From IMG/VR virus record IMGVR_UViG_3300005613_000511, positions 1-20,117 of that record: DNA of 20,117 nucleotides. One strand, written 5' to 3'. Below the pieces are notes generated by a model. It searched no databases and was not told the origin of the DNA. It worked only from the letters and a program-made list of their open reading frames with translations. The DNA is from a virus. Below, one piece after another: positions 3,423 to 12,655 of this stretch. Position numbers and translations under genes: made by a program. Position 1 is the first letter of the stretch. Each line of letters starts with the position of its first letter.

Positions 3423-3451
3423 TTTGATTCTTGTTTATCCCGTGTTGTAGG
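3423..3451. repeat. 29-bp direct repeat, copy 1 (28/29 identical to copy 2)
   Basis: The plus-strand sequence begins TTTGATTCTTGTTTATCCC and ends TGTTGTAGG. It recurs with one mismatch at 4400-4428, 977 bp away. Copy 1 lies between the 48-aa gene and the lipoprotein gene. Both copies are between genes on the minus strand, downstream of one stop codon and upstream of the next start. Confidence 0.85.
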
Positions 3452-3465
3452 CGATATTTTTGCGA

Positions 3466-3612: not shown

Positions 3613-3637
3613 ACTGCTTTTATTTTTTATTTTTTTG

Positions 3638-3709
3638 TTGCAGGGGTAGGAATCGAACCTACTACCTCTGGCTCATGAACCCAGAATGCAACCACTACAC
3701 CTCCCCACA
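3638..3709 (-). tRNA. tRNA-Met (anticodon CAU)
   Basis: The minus-strand sequence folds as a 72-nt cloverleaf. The acceptor stem UGUGGGG pairs with CCCUGCA (two G-U pairs). The D arm is GUGU/GCAU with GG in the loop. The anticodon stem is CUGGG/GCCAG around loop UUCAUGA, and the variable loop is AGGUA. The T arm is GUAGG/CCUAC with loop UUCGAUU. The discriminator is A and CCA is not encoded. Odd points are A at position 8 and a G-G mismatch at 31-39. CAU could also be tRNA-Ile2 after lysidine modification or an initiator type; the first acceptor pair U-A does not decide this. Confidence 0.85.
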
Positions 3710-3749: not shown

Positions 3750-3777
3750 CAACTTTTAAATTCATATGTGTATTTAA

Positions 3778-3810
3778 CGCTTCGTTCATTTCACTAAATT
3801 CATTTACTAT
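3778..3810. repeat. 33-bp direct repeat, copy 1
   Basis: It starts CGCTTCGTTCATTTCACTA and matches 3862-3894 at 31 of 33 positions. On the minus strand copy 2 encodes ENECSEMNEA in the 49-aa gene, while copy 1 lies after that gene's stop and would encode VNEFSEMNEA. It is therefore a duplicated piece of coding sequence left downstream, with no start codon for the whole fragment. Confidence 0.8.
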
Positions 3811-3849: not shown

Positions 3850-3999
3850 TTACCCCACTATCGCTTCGTTCATTTCACTACATTCATTTTCTATGCTATC
3901 AATACGTTTCTTAAAGCTATCAGATAAGCTATCGTAAGGTATCCCACCATTTGAAGTAGGCTTGAAAATGTCAAGTATCTTGGTTAATGAACTTTTCAT
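3850..3999 (-). CDS. Hypothetical protein, 49 aa
   Basis: An ATG at 3999 opens MKSSLTKILDIFKPTSNGGIPYDSLSDSFKKRIDSIENECSEMNEAIVG. Two helical stretches are separated by a glycine-rich turn. No family is recognised. The C-terminal segment SIENECSEMNEA is repeated at DNA level just downstream (3778-3810), which supports it having been a real coding segment. It is about 50 bp after the AT-rich zinc-ribbon gene. A TAAAAGCATATNAAAA motif occurs twice in front of it (about 3999-4010 and 4020-4036 on the complementary strand) and could be an operator or chance. Confidence 0.6.
   Translation of the reverse strand: MKSSLTKILDIFKPTSNGGIPYDSLSDSFKKRIDSIENECSEMNEAIVG
3862..3894. repeat. 33-bp direct repeat, copy 2 (inside the 49-aa gene)
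   Basis: This is the source-like copy of the repeat at 3778-3810, with two mismatches. It is in frame within the end of the 49-aa gene, and the two copies are offset by 84 bp. Confidence 0.8.
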
Positions 4000-4282: not shown

Positions 4283-4436
4283 CTGTCATCTAATTAGTTT
4301 ACTTTTTAATTTAGTAAGTCTTTATCCTTACTTTGTTTATGTCTTTGTCAGGTTATACCCTTAGTTTATCCATAATATTCTCTTGCGTCATTATGGTTAT
4401 TTGATTCTTGTTTATCCCATGTTGTAGGTAATAATC
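4283..4436. other. AT-rich intergenic stretch with repeat copy 2
   Basis: Only a 12-codon frame (MTQENIMDKLRV at about 4390-4352 on the minus strand) and a weak inverted repeat AGTAAG/CTTACT are seen. The 29-bp direct repeat copy lies at 4400-4428, next to a hairpin GTAGG/CCTAC formed with the end of the upstream gene. I see no convincing gene or promoter here. Confidence 0.5.
4400..4428. repeat. 29-bp direct repeat, copy 2
   Basis: It matches 3423-3451 with a single mismatch (A for G after TTTATCCC). It lies directly after the stop of the 75-aa gene. The pair brackets the 1-kb stretch that holds the tRNA, the T-arm fragment and three short AT-rich genes. Confidence 0.85.
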
Positions 4437-5715: not shown

Positions 5716-6476
5716 AAAGTGTCTTCTATGTAATATTGGTCTAAATCTCCTTCGTCTTCAAAGAATGCTTTGTATCGCTCGATTCCAAGTTCAGTCTTAC
5801 GTCCACCCTCAAGATAAAACTCCATCGAAATATTAAATACCCCTATGTCTAATGAACCTTTATCTATAACTAAAAAGGTGAAATTCTCAGGTGCTATACC
5901 AAAGAGTTCGCAATAAATGAACGCTTGTACATCGTAGCCGTATTTCTTAGCACTGTACGGAAAGGATTTAATATCTGACGTGGTTTTTATATCTACAATT
6001 TTATTTTCTCCCAAGACATCAGCTTTACCCCTGAATGGATACCCTATCACCTCTCCAATAGTGGGGACTTCGAATTGGCAGTTAGCTATCAAACTAACCG
6101 CTTTCTGATTCTTTAAGAACGCATCAGCCATACGCTCTGCTTCTTCCTTCTCTTTAATCGTAAACACCTTTCCTAACTCCTCCTTCGCTTCTTTGTAAAG
6201 CTTCGTGTTCTTTGACTGTACATTCACAAAGTTTTGAGCGTTAAATACCTCAGGTTCTAATATCGCTGCGTGAAATAGCCAGCCACTTCTAAGCGCATCC
6301 GTTTCCGCATTCCCGTATTTGGTAACGTAGTGGTAGGTCTTAGGAGAATCTAAAAGTAGCTTGATTGATGATGATGATAAAGCTAATCGGTTTAGTTCTC
6401 CATAGTAGAAGGAGTCGTCTCCCATTCTTTGAATCAGCTCGTCTTTGTCTGTTTTCGTGCCGTTTAGTAGTTTCAT
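5712..6476 (-). CDS. RecE-like PD-(D/E)XK exonuclease
   Basis: The 254-aa protein resembles the exonuclease VIII/RecE C-terminal (DUF3799-type) nuclease. Visible motifs are LSSSSIKLLLDSPKTYHY near the start; H69 in GWLFHAAILEP; E142; D153 in RGKADVL; D162 and K164 in IVDIKTT; and QAFIY (184-188) with the QxxxY motif. These form the metal-binding core that resects linear double-stranded DNA. The usual partner annealing protein (RecT, Erf or Redβ) is not recognisable in this window. The gene has its own promoter box at 6493-6500 and an A-rich leader ending AAAAAGATATG, and it is followed by the DnaA-like gene with an ATGA overlap. Confidence 0.88.
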   Translation of the reverse strand: MKLLNGTKTDKDELIQRMGDDSFYYGELNRLALSSSSIKLLLDSPKTYHYVTKYGNAETDALRSGWLFHAAILEPEVFNAQNFVNVQSKNTKLYKEAKEELGKVFTIKEKEEAERMADAFLKNQKAVSLIANCQFEVPTIGEVIGYPFRGKADVLGENKIVDIKTTSDIKSFPYSAKKYGYDVQAFIYCELFGIAPENFTFLVIDKGSLDIGVFNISMEFYLEGGRKTELGIERYKAFFEDEGDLDQYYIEDTL

Positions 6477-6511
6477 ATCTTTTTGTTTTGTGCAAAGATA
6501 TAAAAAACTTT
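6477..6511 (-). promoter_or_regulatory. Promoter for the nuclease operon (TATCTTTG box)
   Basis: On the minus strand TATATCTTTGCACAAAACAA precedes the ATG at 6476, with TATCTTTG at 6493-6500. The box and the A-rich leader resemble those at 905-912 and 12631-12638. No TTG -33 element is visible; TAATATAAAAAG lies there instead. Confidence 0.65.
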
Positions 6512-6940
6512 TTATATTATCCTTTTAATAATAGATGGAATGGTCGGGAAGATTAAAAACAAAAGAATAATAGCTGATAAGATGAGGATTGGTTTCCAAG
6601 CTATTTTTTCAATGATTTTCTTTTCCTTGAGTTCTCTATCCTTTTTTATGATTTCGTGTCTTAAATCGCTTATAATGCGTTCTTTCGCTTTGATGTCGAA
6701 TGTTAGTTGGTTGTCCTTGACTTGAATTATAATTGTATCGGTATCACGTACGTAAATTCTTTTAAACTCGATAGCTATTGAATCTTTACATATTTCAGGT
6801 ATAACCATAACATCCGTCAAGAGTGGTGATTTGATTTGCTCTGTACGCACGTAGACCGAATCAATTACTTTAGATTCTAACCTGTAGGTCTTTTTACCGC
6901 AGGATGTCAGTAGCAACGCTAAAATCAATATTCTTTTCAA
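6512..6940 (-). CDS. Lipoprotein with C-terminal membrane helix, candidate unimolecular spanin
   Basis: The start is a TTG at 6940 (no ATG is available). MKRILILALLLTSC is a lipoprotein signal with lipobox LTSC (Cys14). About 95 periplasmic residues follow, with a charged coiled-coil-like stretch (DIKAKERIISDLRHEIIKKDRELKEKKIIEK). A single transmembrane segment, WKPILILSAIILLFLIFPTI, lies near the C-terminus. An outer-membrane lipid anchor plus a C-terminal inner-membrane helix is the topology of u-spanins such as T1 gp11, which fuse the two membranes at the end of lysis. The position is not in the endolysin cluster, which weakens the call. It could instead be another tethering protein. Confidence 0.65.
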   Translation of the reverse strand: MKRILILALLLTSCGKKTYRLESKVIDSVYVRTEQIKSPLLTDVMVIPEICKDSIAIEFKRIYVRDTDTIIIQVKDNQLTFDIKAKERIISDLRHEIIKKDRELKEKKIIEKIAWKPILILSAIILLFLIFPTIPSIIKRII

Positions 6941-9428: not shown

Positions 9429-10238
9429 TTAAAATGTTCTATGAACCTCGTATGGAAGTCCGTTTTCGTTTATGTTAAACTTAAATCCATCAAATGGAAA
9501 CGACCTTGTGTACTTCGCTTTGACTTGAACGTTGTTATCTTCATCTATTTCTACAAATGCTACGGTTTCTGCTTTCTTTAAAATAGCTGACCCTAAATGT
9601 CCGGTGGGTTTGTCAGTTCCGTGGTTACGGTGAATGATTGTAATGATATGAGCATTGCTTTCAGATGTTAGCTTCATAAGCTTTTGAACCACTCTATTTG
9701 ATTCCTTTAAATCGTTAACATCATCCATCAGGTCCGCTGCACCATCCAAAGCTACTAAACCTACTTTACCCTTGTATGCATCCATTAGCAAATATTCAAG
9801 AAATTCCAACCGAACGCTTGCTGGTTGCTCTCTAAGATAGAAAGATTTGTAATGTGCATAATTTGCACCTACCATATCGACCACTCTTTGGGATACGCGT
9901 TGCGAATCAAACTTTGACTGCTCGGTATCTATGTCTAATACATATTTACCTTCCGTTTCGTGACCACGTATTTCGCTAAAATAGTTCTGAGCATTACCCC
10001 CAATGTAGCACGCTATTAATGCTGATTTTAAAAATGTCTTCTTAGACTTAGATGCTCCTACTATGCAGCTAAAGTTTCCATACGTTCCAAACTGAATCGG
10101 AAATAGTTCATTGCGAAAATGGTAAGTACCTATTGACAACGCTACCGGTGGGTAAGGTAGTTTCTCATTTAGCTTTAGAAACGTATCTCTAAAGACATTT
10201 AACATATTAACCGACTCTACTTCTAACTTCTCTATCAT
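9429..10238 (-). CDS. RecA-fold ATPase, RepA/DnaB-type replication helicase
   Basis: The 269-aa protein is a single RecA-like core. A Walker A-like loop GASKSKKT is at residues 61-68, in which the usual glycine before the lysine is lysine. DIDTEQ (102-107) lies near the catalytic position, and Walker B KVGLVALDG at 158-166 is followed by DLM. IITIIHRNHGTDKPTGHLGS fits the sensor/DNA-binding loop of hexameric RepA/DnaB-type helicases. It probably unwinds or loads at the phage origin together with the upstream initiator, which it overlaps by four bases. The Walker A change is known to me from related Bacteroidota proteins, so it is probably tolerated. Confidence 0.85.
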   Translation of the reverse strand: MIEKLEVESVNMLNVFRDTFLKLNEKLPYPPVALSIGTYHFRNELFPIQFGTYGNFSCIVGASKSKKTFLKSALIACYIGGNAQNYFSEIRGHETEGKYVLDIDTEQSKFDSQRVSQRVVDMVGANYAHYKSFYLREQPASVRLEFLEYLLMDAYKGKVGLVALDGAADLMDDVNDLKESNRVVQKLMKLTSESNAHIITIIHRNHGTDKPTGHLGSAILKKAETVAFVEIDEDNNVQVKAKYTRSFPFDGFKFNINENGLPYEVHRTF

Positions 10239-10915
10239 AATGAACCTTTTCTAATCGTTTTATACTCTTCTAATCGTCCCTTAGCATTCATTGAATTTAA
10301 CCAATTTTTAAAATGAGCTAAAAATTTCTGCGTAGATGGGTGTAATATATTCTCAGCAAGTAGGTGCGTATTGAATTGGTTTGATAAGCTTTTTAAGGAT
10401 TCTAATTTAAGCTGCATCTTAATTCGTTCCAAAACTATCTGATGACCTCCATTTTCAATCTCCTTTAAAAACCTATCGTAAAGCAAAAGAATTTGAGATT
10501 CGTTGCTAATATTATTATTCTTTATTTCTTTATATTCTTTAGTTGTTGTTATTTGTCTGTTATTTGTCTGTTGTTCGTCTGTTAGGTTGTTTGTTATGCA
10601 TACGTTAGAAATCTGAAATTTATCCCATTTTACAAGGGTTACAAGCTGATATTTGTTTGTTACCTTCCTTGTTACTTCTCGGCTACTTTCTAATTTACCT
10701 ATTGCAGTACGACATTGCATAGGTGTTAGTCCAACATCCTTAGCAAGTGTATCCCAAGAAAGCACCATAGAACCTTTAGGAATATCAACTCCTTTCCATT
10801 TCTTATCCTCATAATTTACAGACAACAGTAGATGAACCAGCAAACGCGTAGCGTTATGGTCATCGTACCACTCCCACTCTTTTAAGCTTCTAAATATTTT
10901 AACGAATCCAGACAT
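10235..10915 (-). CDS. Replication initiator-like winged-helix protein
   Basis: The likely start is the ATG at 10915 (MSGFVKIFRSLKEWEWYDDH), because an in-frame start at 10951 lies inside the hairpin leader. The 226-aa protein has an N-terminal domain typical of phage initiators of the O/DnaD type: FRSLKEWEWYDDHNATRLLVHLL, then GSMVLSWDTLAKDVGLTPMQCRTAIGKLESSREV and LVTLVKWDKFQI. This is followed by a low-complexity polar linker (about 117-147) and a helical C-terminal domain. The linker DNA contains three 11-bp iterons beside an AT-rich stretch. The following gene encodes the helicase-type ATPase, as in lambda O-P order. Confidence 0.8.
   Translation of the reverse strand: MSGFVKIFRSLKEWEWYDDHNATRLLVHLLLSVNYEDKKWKGVDIPKGSMVLSWDTLAKDVGLTPMQCRTAIGKLESSREVTRKVTNKYQLVTLVKWDKFQISNVCITNNLTDEQQTNNRQITTTKEYKEIKNNNISNESQILLLYDRFLKEIENGGHQIVLERIKMQLKLESLKSLSNQFNTHLLAENILHPSTQKFLAHFKNWLNSMNAKGRLEEYKTIRKGSL
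10503..10581. other. Candidate replication origin: three 11-bp iterons and AT-rich stretch
   Basis: Plus-strand TTATTTGTCTG occurs at 10549-10559 and 10560-10570, and a variant TTGTTCGTCTG follows at 10571-10581. The flank 10503-10548 is almost only A and T. The repeat length is not a multiple of three and the copies encode different amino acids, so protein repeats do not explain them. They lie in the linker part of the initiator gene, as in lambda O. Confidence 0.6.
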
Positions 10916-10923
10916 AATAAGAA

Positions 10924-10976
10924 ACCCACCAATCTTGATAGCCGTCACCACAATGGCATCTCAAGAATTGGTGGGT
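10924..10976 (-). promoter_or_regulatory. Structured RNA leader element A, upstream of the initiator gene
   Basis: On the minus strand ACCCACCAAT (10967-10976) pairs perfectly with ATTGGTGGGT (10924-10933). Inside it CTTGA pairs with TCAAG, then GCC with GGC, around a loop with TTGTGGTGA. The 3' strand ends eight bases before the ATG at 10915, so it may hide the start region. Layout and core match element B at 11228-11279, while the stems differ in sequence. It is not a terminator: no T tract follows directly. Confidence 0.75.
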
Positions 10977-11013
10977 ATTTAAAGTTTTTTAACATTATGG
11001 TGACAATTTAAAG

Positions 11014-11021
11014 CAAATATA
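11014..11021 (-). promoter_or_regulatory. Promoter box TATATTTG before leader A
   Basis: This is a perfect TAnnTTTG match about 100 bp before the initiator ATG. It is followed by GCTTTAAATT, which is nearly the same as after the box before leader B (GCTTCAAATT). The expected TTG -33 element is replaced by TTATGG. Confidence 0.6.
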
Positions 11022-11026
11022 CATTT

Positions 11027-11209
11027 TTATATCTGCTCCATAAGTAATTCAATTGCGTTAAACGCTATTTTTACAGCTTGGTCTTCGATATCTAACTCAA
11101 CATCCTCCGCTTTAGCTAAAATGCATTTAAACAATTCTCCAGCTTGTTCATTAGTAAGTTCACATACAATAGTAGAAAGCCCACTAAGTAATAAAATTTG
11201 ATTTTCCAT
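11027..11209 (-). CDS. Short DUF6291-like phage protein, 60 aa
   Basis: MENQILLLSGLSTIVCELTNEQAGELFKCILAKAEDVELDIEDQAVKIAFNAIELLMEQI contains LTNEQAGELFKCIL and VKIAFNAI. This recalls DUF6291-type proteins (L-x-x-E-Q-x-G-x-L-F-x-A-I ... V-x-x-A-F-x-x-I) found beside phage replication genes, but it is shorter than those I know. The function is unknown. It has its own structured leader (element B) 18 bp upstream, and its end overlaps no gene but lies next to the TATATTTG promoter box for the initiator. Confidence 0.75.
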   Translation of the reverse strand: MENQILLLSGLSTIVCELTNEQAGELFKCILAKAEDVELDIEDQAVKIAFNAIELLMEQI

Positions 11210-11227
11210 AAGATTATAAAAAATAAA

Positions 11228-11279
11228 GCCGCCTCACCACGATAGCCACCGCCAGAAGGCATTTCGTGTATGAGACGGC
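11228..11279 (-). promoter_or_regulatory. Structured RNA leader element B, upstream of the 60-aa gene
   Basis: On the minus strand GCCGTCTCA (11271-11279) pairs with TGAGGCGGC (11228-11236) in nine pairs including one G-U. Inside, CACGA pairs with TCGTG, and GCC with GGC, around loop TTCTGGCGGT. The core AATGCC..TT.TGG...GGCTATC agrees with element A. A TTTATTTTTT run follows the 3' strand, so it might also act as an attenuator. The start codon at 11209 is 18 bases further on. Confidence 0.75.
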
Positions 11280-11315
11280 AAATTAAGTTCGTAAATCACT
11301 GGCAGTAATTTGAAG

Positions 11316-11323
11316 CAAAGATA
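11316..11323 (-). promoter_or_regulatory. Promoter box TATCTTTG before leader B
   Basis: This is a perfect TAnnTTTG match directly after the stop of the SSB-like gene. It is followed by GCTTCAAATT, as in the leader A promoter. About 110 bp separate it from the ATG at 11209. Confidence 0.6.
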
Positions 11324-11325
11324 AA

Positions 11326-12075
11326 TTAAAATCCTAAACTATCAGGGTCGTAATCAAAATACTCCTTATCCGAACTCGGTGGTGGAGTAGGTTGCCTATC
11401 ACTTTCTTCTACTGCATCATTAAGCATTGAAATGCTTGCTGCTATTCTATCTCGTTTAGTAGGCTCACTTTTGAAATAAGAAGCCTCGTAGCGTGATAAT
11501 AATTCGTCTGCTGCTTCAGCTAACTTTTCTTGTTCGCTTTTTAGTTTACCACCAAACCCAAACACTGGGTAGGTAAAAGTAACTGCTCCAGTTTTGCCTT
11601 CTTTGTAACCTTCAACGTGAACAAACTCGTTAAAGAATCGGTGTGTCTGGTTCTTCTGAAACTCAAACCAAGTAGATAAAGAAGCGCCTTGCAACTGAAG
11701 ATTAACAAGTTCCCCATCCGGTAACATCGCATAAACGCTTTCGGTGTATCTGCCGTTCCACATCTCTACGGTTTCTTTGATGTCTGCCCAAGCACCTCTT
11801 GCGATTTCTTGTCGGTCGCCTTTTTTGTAAAAGTTAACTACAAACTCATCCTTTAGGCTTTTAACCTCGTTGGCGATAATAGCACCTTCACGTTTCTGAT
11901 TCCATCCTTTAACAGTCTTAAAACGTGCCAAGGCTAAAAACTTTACTGGCATTTCCAGAAATACATTCTGCCCAGTGGTCTTGTCGTAGTAACTGAACTT
12001 TTGGTGTTCACTCTTCCAGCTTAGAAACTTAGTAGCCGGATTCGACATTTCGGTTGTCATTCTGTTTTCTCTCAT
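11326..12075 (-). CDS. Candidate single-stranded DNA-binding protein, 249 aa
   Basis: The body contains alternating strand-like segments (ATKFLSWKSEHQKFSYYDKT, EMPVKFLALARFKTVKGW, DEFVVNFYKKG) with many aromatic and basic residues. It ends in a proline/serine-rich linker and an acidic tip, EYFDYDPDSLGF. An acidic tail with terminal phenylalanine is the hallmark of bacterial and T7/T4-type SSBs, where it recruits replication proteins. The protein shows no classic OB-fold signature that I can read, so the SSB call rests on tail, length and its place among replication genes. It starts at 12075 (alternative ATG at 12060). The next promoter follows its stop immediately. Confidence 0.6.
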   Translation of the reverse strand: MRENRMTTEMSNPATKFLSWKSEHQKFSYYDKTTGQNVFLEMPVKFLALARFKTVKGWNQKREGAIIANEVKSLKDEFVVNFYKKGDRQEIARGAWADIKETVEMWNGRYTESVYAMLPDGELVNLQLQGASLSTWFEFQKNQTHRFFNEFVHVEGYKEGKTGAVTFTYPVFGFGGKLKSEQEKLAEAADELLSRYEASYFKSEPTKRDRIAASISMLNDAVEESDRQPTPPPSSDKEYFDYDPDSLGF

Positions 12076-12316: not shown

Positions 12317-12607
12317 TTAGATTGATGTTTCGTAAGCTATCGTGTTTCCTTTTCGTGGTTGACCATTTCTCGATGTTTTTTCAAAAAACATAATATGATA
12401 ATCTTTGTGAAAATCATCAAATGTCTCATCGTAAAGATTAGCCCATTCATTAATTTGAGATTTAGATACCTCAATTTCAGTAGATGTCTTGGTGTAACTT
12501 TCACTCCATACCCTGATGTAAATCTTATTACCTACACGTTTAACATTCATACTAAATATTTGATTTGCGTAGTGGTATGCTTTCTGTGCGTTTGTTAAAG
12601 TTGTCAT
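12317..12607 (-). CDS. Hypothetical protein, 96 aa
   Basis: I set the start at the ATG at 12607 (MTTLTNAQKAYHYANQIFSM). A start 21 codons upstream would cover the promoter box and leader shared with the gene at 883. The protein continues NVKRVGNKIYIRVWSESYTKTSTEIEVSKSQINEWANLYDETFDDFHKDYHIMFFEKTSRNGQPRKG, with an N-terminal helix, beta strands and a polar C-terminus. No family is recognised. Its promoter and two flanking terminators make it a single-gene unit, typical of an accessory or early gene. Confidence 0.75.
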   Translation of the reverse strand: MTTLTNAQKAYHYANQIFSMNVKRVGNKIYIRVWSESYTKTSTEIEVSKSQINEWANLYDETFDDFHKDYHIMFFEKTSRNGQPRKGNTIAYETSI

Positions 12608-12655
12608 ATCGTTTTCTGTTTTTGTTTCACCAAAGATATAAAAATATTTTGATAA
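12600..12655 (-). promoter_or_regulatory. Promoter plus leader, copy 2 of the duplicated ~53-bp unit
   Basis: The minus strand has TTATCAAAATATTTTTA, then TATCTTTG (12631-12638), GGTGAAACAAAAACAG and ATGACAA. It agrees almost base for base with 877-929, allowing a few single-base gaps. Between the two lie more than 11 kb, so the copies are independent promoters of the same regulon or a recent duplication. Confidence 0.75.

Follow-up and report, generated by a model that had tools for sequence, protein, structure and literature searches.

A covarying class of leader RNAs precedes replication-initiation genes in phages and may attenuate their expression

Why should a phage carry two leaders of the same design in front of two consecutive genes, and what might those leaders do? 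The question is raised by a virus record of 20,117 bases, the whole of which is called the window here, whose genes include those for terminase, portal, NinG, exonuclease VIII and a DnaD-like helicase loader. On its minus strand, element A lies ahead of the DnaD-like loader gene (10235-10915; PHROG 2514, E 1.6e-16, with relatives found) and element B lies ahead of a 60-amino-acid DUF6291 open reading frame (11027-11209; PF19808, 27.9 bits against a cut-off of 27.2). The original prediction described both as hairpins with a common core behind a promoter-like box, and all that it claimed about coordinates, stems, steps, core and pairing is present in A (10976-10924) and B (11279-11228). The shared core, ATGCC-N9..12-GGCTATC-NN-G, occurs twice in the window against an expectation of 0.00, and TAnnTTTG followed by GCTTYAAATT stands ahead of both copies. 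A and B are homologous leaders. The layout first proposed for them was right and the extent was too short: the loop of the hairpin pairs with the leader, so the element starts in the leader.

We refer to the leader segment as X, to the loop as X', to the leader hairpin as H1 and to the terminator-like hairpin as H2. In both A and B the bases of the H2 apical loop can pair with a stretch of leader that follows closely on the TAnnTTTG box, a feature that the original prediction lacked. In A, the box (TATATTTG, 11014-11021, minus strand like all parts of both elements) is a putative promoter that matches the consensus of the Bacteroidota-type -7 box; X (10994-11004) and the apical loop X' (10944-10954) form a kiss of GUCACCAUAAU with AUUGUGGUGAC, 11 bp with one G-U. 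The box of B (TATCTTTG, 11316-11323) is likewise a consensus match, and its X (ACUGCCAG, 11299-11306) pairs with CUGGCGGU over 8 bp, again with one G-U, the apical loop X' being UUCUGGCGGU (11248-11257). Dinucleotide-shuffled leaders match the kiss score in 0.02% of cases for A (p = 0.0002) and 0.12% for B (p = 0.0012). X and X' differ in sequence between the two elements, and thus the kiss pairing itself covaries.

The remaining parts of A and B give them the appearance of terminated leaders. H2 of A (10924-10976) has a 10-bp outer stem, a 5-bp second stem, an internal loop and a GCC/GGC pair of strands, and its counterpart in B spans 11228-11279. Behind the H2 stems are U-rich tracts, UUUCUUAUU and UUUAUUUUUUAU, at 10915-10923 in A (the UUCUUAUUA region, which runs into the ATG of the DnaD-like gene) and at 11214-11227 in B. 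It is this order, H2 stem and then U-rich tract before an ATG, that makes the hairpins look like intrinsic terminators. A simple terminator scan of the window called neither of them because its loop size was limited to 3-8 bases. A folds with a minimum free energy of -26.3 kcal/mol and B with one of -29.0 kcal/mol (z -5.1 and -4.3), and none of 200 shuffles folded as well. H1 is less even: in B the hairpin AAAUU-ACUGCCAGU-GAUUU (11293-11311) folds alone at -3.1 kcal/mol, whereas the possible weak H1 of A (UUUAA..UUAAA, 10988-11012) was placed by eye and by homology with H1 of relatives, and that segment taken alone has no predicted fold (0 kcal/mol).

Are these leaders peculiar to one phage? 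The same layout recurs in viral contigs with a related loader, ahead of the loader or of a small open reading frame just before it: a TAnnTTTG box, H1 (for example GGUUC-X-ANNAUA-GAACC), an A/U-rich linker of 12-15 nt, H2 with X' in its loop, a U-tract and a start codon. Dozens of viral contigs have the architecture ahead of genes for replication initiation, either DnaD-like loader or DUF6291, and two cultured phages carry it in unannotated sequence: Cellulophaga phage phi18:3 (L095 3071-3173, minus strand), upstream of the loader, and Gundel_1 of Tenacibaculum (33,891-34,005), where an antirepressor (Ant) gene follows. There is usually one copy per contig, or about one per viral contig of about 30 kb. 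Strong U-tracts lie 3' of H2 in the relatives, where a GC-rich stem is followed by a U-run and termination is predicted; H2 lacks a U-tract in some of them (L080, L166). In some relatives (L001 547-969, L012 2169-2708) the gene that precedes the element codes for a small protein whose helix-turn-helix is DnaA C-terminal-like (PF08299), the L001 match (E 9.9e-7) falling just under the family cut-off.

A promoter-free scan of 522 kb yielded 32 distinct candidate leaders, of which one or two have the look of chance matches; shuffled sequence yielded none. At DUF6291 genes the scanner saw kiss-type pairing upstream at 53 of 80 loci, and a covariance model adds at least four, but the scanner demands a kiss and its matches cannot be used to estimate kiss frequency. 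Two tests are free of that bias. When the H1 pattern was scanned with X and X' left open, 44 viral contigs matched, and a matching X' followed within 70 nt in 35 of them, the other nine matches being unrelated sequence. The second test used model R2, a covariance model made from 48 relatives and no window sequence, which was applied to the entire window with its filters switched off: the best two places were A (10915-11019, E 0.0024) and B (11218-11327, E 0.13), values that are rough, as covariance-model E-values are.

Members of the class share pairing rather than sequence. With the kiss counted, a set of 14 sequences had 95.3% of its cells paired and two-sided changes in 22 of 29 pairs; in 48 sequences aligned to the first model these figures were 98.1% and 24 of 28. 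The covariation score of the larger set was 0.755, against 0.221 when shuffled and 0.056-0.096 when slid. That alignment had been fitted to H1, P1 and P3 and not to the kiss, and still the eight kiss pairs were 94.8-97.2% paired across the 48 sequences, six of the eight having changed on both sides. The nearest relative of B (L005, IMGVR_UViG_3300024517_000244) has a P1 of entirely different sequence that is nevertheless paired, and an X and X' that differ from those of B. Further copies thus exist and their stems stay paired, which was the test set beforehand for the prediction of a functional structured RNA with compensating stems before initiator genes; the covariation in both sequence sets supports it strongly. 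That these leaders make up a structured RNA class is, in our judgement, close to certain.

A and B are outlying members, with a longer H2, a different internal loop and, in A, a weak H1. Their internal loops are GAU/UA and AAU/UA, unlike the UGAA/GGAU of the relatives, which together with the joiner ANNAUA in H1 makes up the conserved unpaired part of the class; the relatives combine that joiner with a stable H1, and B has an H1-like stem and A a weak one. The internal loop is reversed in phi18:3 (GGAU/UGAA) and is replaced at L001-type loci by AGUA/GAA, which resembles a sarcin-ricin loop. Four leaders upstream of DUF6291 (L175, L181, L184, L200) have a shorter H2, a 6-7-nt kiss, an H1 of the form ACAUC-CUGCAU-GAUGU and an H2 loop containing AUGCAG, and they form a possible third subclass.

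What kind of RNA is it? No Rfam family matched the window (its tRNA aside), 19 element loci or, in permissive searches, A, B and another member (L045), which removes the known riboswitch and ribozyme classes as candidates. The suggestion of a riboswitch-like sensor or a ribozyme found no support: the apical loop is a freely covarying partner, with 23 distinct X strings in the 48 rows, and the AUGCC/GGCUAUC core on which the idea drew is local, occurring only in A, B and L005 among the sequences examined. A metabolite riboswitch was rejected on the same variation of the loop and on the conserved unpaired bases, which amount to short joiners and a small internal loop with no invariant core. The element was absent from 76 other viral contigs with GGCGGTGGCTATCGTG. 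A short leader open reading frame was discarded too, the frame seen in A and B not being kept, by eye, in L005 or L001. A literature search, which covered open-access papers, turned up no description of the element, and this does not by itself prove novelty.

The genes behind the leaders bear on the presence of two of them in one genome. The gene that follows the element in L005 (2659-3285) is a fusion of a DUF6291-like N-terminus to a loader-type C-terminus, and this C-terminus is nearly identical to that of the DnaD-like loader in the window. In the window, by comparison, these parts are divided: a short open reading frame behind B has the DUF6291 part to itself, and the gene behind A has the DnaD-like part together with the C-terminus shared with L005. 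The simplest reading of the two leaders would be an exchange of initiator modules, each with its own leader. The interchangeable N-terminal domains of the DnaD-like gene and the L005 fusion further suggest that DUF6291 may be a replication-initiation domain.

Elsewhere in the window, a tRNA-Met (CAT) gene (3637-3709, minus strand) is flanked, about 200 nt and about 700 nt off, by 34-nt direct repeats that are 91% identical (3423-3456 and 4400-4433), and a second pair of 36 nt and 92% identity lies nearby (3775-3810 and 3859-3894); the direct repeats around the tRNA gene may mark an insertion or duplication. A 53-nt promoter-like repeat with TATATCTTTG is present in three minus-strand copies (876-928, 6464-6516 and 12602-12654), and the genes behind them are without a hairpin leader.

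Read as a whole, the element is most likely an attenuator of the initiator operon. Control of initiator expression in cis appears probable, and for its mode we lean, by a little, towards termination or attenuation. H2 would act as an intrinsic terminator at which many transcripts end as an RNA of about 100 nt, while some would read through H2 to become initiator mRNA. The X:X' kiss may compete with completion of the lower H2 stem and in this way decide between read-through and termination. The base pairings of kiss and terminator in cis are not mutually exclusive, and the competition rests on a crude rod model in which coaxial stacking is assumed: with 5 bp of H1, 8 bp of kiss and 19 bp of H2 stacked coaxially, the 12-15-nt linker needs 5.6-6.9 Å per step, which is nearly full stretch, and without the lower H2 stem the linker is slack. 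If the model holds, the kiss in cis would oppose the full terminator. A kiss supplied in trans would relieve the one in cis and favour termination, giving an allele-specific negative feedback by the accumulated short RNA. In the most speculative step, the short terminated RNA would act in trans, on leaders whose X/X' allele matches its own, and shut the gene off, as P4 CI RNA does, with self-limitation and allele-specific exclusion of relatives as the outcome. This trans action we regard as doubtful. The proposal in full, that the class of leaders to which A and B belong attenuates replication-initiation genes and that allele-specific shut-off in trans is included, falls slightly short of an even chance.

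The proposed attenuation would account for a terminated RNA, for paired loops, for a position ahead of the DnaD-like loader, DUF6291 or an adjacent small open reading frame, for swaps of alleles between phages and for different alleles in one genome. The swaps are seen in some near-identical phages, which have wholly different X/X' alleles inside flanks that are about 99% identical. Between L133 and L152 a few bases differ in about 300 nt on each side and about a quarter of the roughly 110-nt element differs, with H1, X, X' and P3 replaced and the pairing of H1, X and X' kept; in L037 and L045 the downstream flanks are identical and X is unrelated; and L115 and L121 have element differences almost solely in X and X'. 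Where downstream divergence is below 3%, 29 pairs share X (element divergence 0.8%) and five do not (29%), and once related loci are considered the closest relatives show about three independent swaps. As far as these comparisons go, X is as a rule conserved and now and then replaced whole; a general hypervariability of X was rejected since close relatives mostly share it.

A third copy of X directly before the start codon was found at 17 of 68 genes, close relatives included, against 86 of 4556 (1.9%) when the start-codon segments were swapped between loci. Examples are GUUGCAG-AUG, AGGCAG-UAAA-AUG and CACUACAC-C-AUG. The test is clear with the start codons of loader and DUF6291 genes and weak on mixed classes, and neither A nor B belongs to its best cases. 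The third copy is missing from class I, which takes in most sequences, and subclass II has the order X - X' - X. In one leader (L190, 124 to 1 nt before the DUF6291 start) the complementarity with the hairpin is extended and falls into two parts, GUGCGAUA..AAACCAUGA with UCAUGGUU..UAUCGCAC; its third copy, GUGCGAU, stands at the start codon.

The swapped alleles at nearly identical loci, the third X at the start codon and the precedent of P4 CI RNA hint at action in trans. Against specificity in trans, the swaps are few and can be the product of recombination without selection, and most close pairs share X. The strongest competitor is an attenuator that works in cis only and that we consider nearly as likely as feedback in trans, that is, possible rather than probable: the kiss would shape a leader fold on which terminator strength or mRNA stability depends, and which may respond to a signal from the host, for example polymerase speed or a protein, and the differences in X and X' would be compensatory drift and recombination. 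It fits the match of X to X' within one leader and the retention of the same X in most near-identical relatives, and the conserved ANNAUA joiner and UGAA/GGAU internal loop would suit a precise tertiary fold or a protein site. It is hard put to explain by slow drift the wholesale change of H1, X, X' and P3 within about 110 nt between L133 and L152, and it gives the third copy of X at start codons no role.

An improbable reading is that the RNA of about 100 nt is a stable small RNA that uses its loops to target other RNAs of the phage or the host, or one that multimerises by intermolecular H1-H2 kissing like phi29 pRNA, control of the next gene being secondary. Its own promoter-like box and terminator-like end, its two mutually complementary loops and the strained cis geometry of the rod model would suit such an RNA; its usual single copy per contig and its position, mostly directly before replication-initiation genes or, in Gundel_1, the antirepressor gene, do not. 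Least probable is a DNA-level element in which X, X' and X would serve as repeats bound by a protein or would belong to a replication origin placed between DnaA-like and DnaD-like genes, with an RNA structure that is only incidental, for although some phages place the element between a DnaA-domain gene and the loader and X is found in both orientations, the four helices have G-U pairs and two-sided changes, the element keeps a single orientation relative to promoter and gene with its U-tract at the 3' end, and X varies freely among phages.

If attenuation extends to shut-off in trans, these leaders could be the basis of an RNA incompatibility system in Bacteroidota phages: the kissing loop of a released short RNA would shut off only initiator leaders of the same allele, and X/X' alleles would define compatibility groups among competing, mostly non-integrating phages. 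We rate this as more doubtful still than trans action itself. Classical prophage immunity is unlikely for most of these phages because an integrase is rare among the records searched: a tyrosine integrase was found only in phi18:3 among 17 records (15 virus contigs including the window, Gundel_1 and phi18:3; contigs may be incomplete), and immunity of integrated prophages was set aside on this ground. Nor did 395 Bacteroidota genomes hold a convincing copy by either covariance model; host-encoded copies were rejected, the weak model matches being without a kissing partner by the scanner.

The covariation of the class is unusually strong, and its members stand at the point where a phage becomes committed to replicating. 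With such an element a phage may be able to restrain its own replication genes, or those of competing phages. Should the loops work in trans, phages would be able to recognise relatives and keep them out by means of RNA alone, and the different X/X' alleles would supply orthogonal pairs ready for use. In phi18:3 and Gundel_1, both of them cultured, the element can be put to a direct test.

The RNA class, which matches no Rfam family, is probably new, and its mechanism is probably a variant of same-strand antisense or attenuation control. In the ColE1 RNAI/RNAII system kissing loops control plasmid replication and loop alleles define compatibility; the ColE1 partners come from opposite strands, whereas here both are on one transcript. 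The HMP-PP (thiS) riboswitch has a possible pseudoknot built into a leader terminator hairpin (PMC6478431), as these elements may have, but it and other terminator-embedded aptamers keep a well conserved ligand-binding loop where the loop here is a freely covarying partner. IsrK of prophage Gifsy-1 is a terminated small RNA with read-through into the downstream phage operon, and in trans it activates translation of a gene further down its own operon (PMC4825925); terminated RNA and read-through are predicted here as well, in a different host phylum and with a different structure. The C4 antisense RNA of P1/P7, a trans-acting phage RNA, represses antirepressor synthesis (PMC8546580) and is called a processed 77-base RNA in a title in the reference list of that paper; the Gundel_1 element likewise precedes an Ant gene, and the elements described here have no Rfam match. 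In phage P4, CI RNA pairs with seqA and seqC, upstream and downstream of itself, and causes premature termination of replication-gene transcription (PMC4825925). Pairing in our elements differs in being loop-to-loop between two small hairpins, the second of which is itself terminator-like, and most members are without a seqC. The likeness to P4 is one of layout: a same-strand RNA lies in the leader of a phage replication operon, its central segment is complementary to an upstream segment, the counterpart of seqA, and in subclass II to a downstream segment too, where the order X - X' - X is the order seqA - seqB - seqC of P4.
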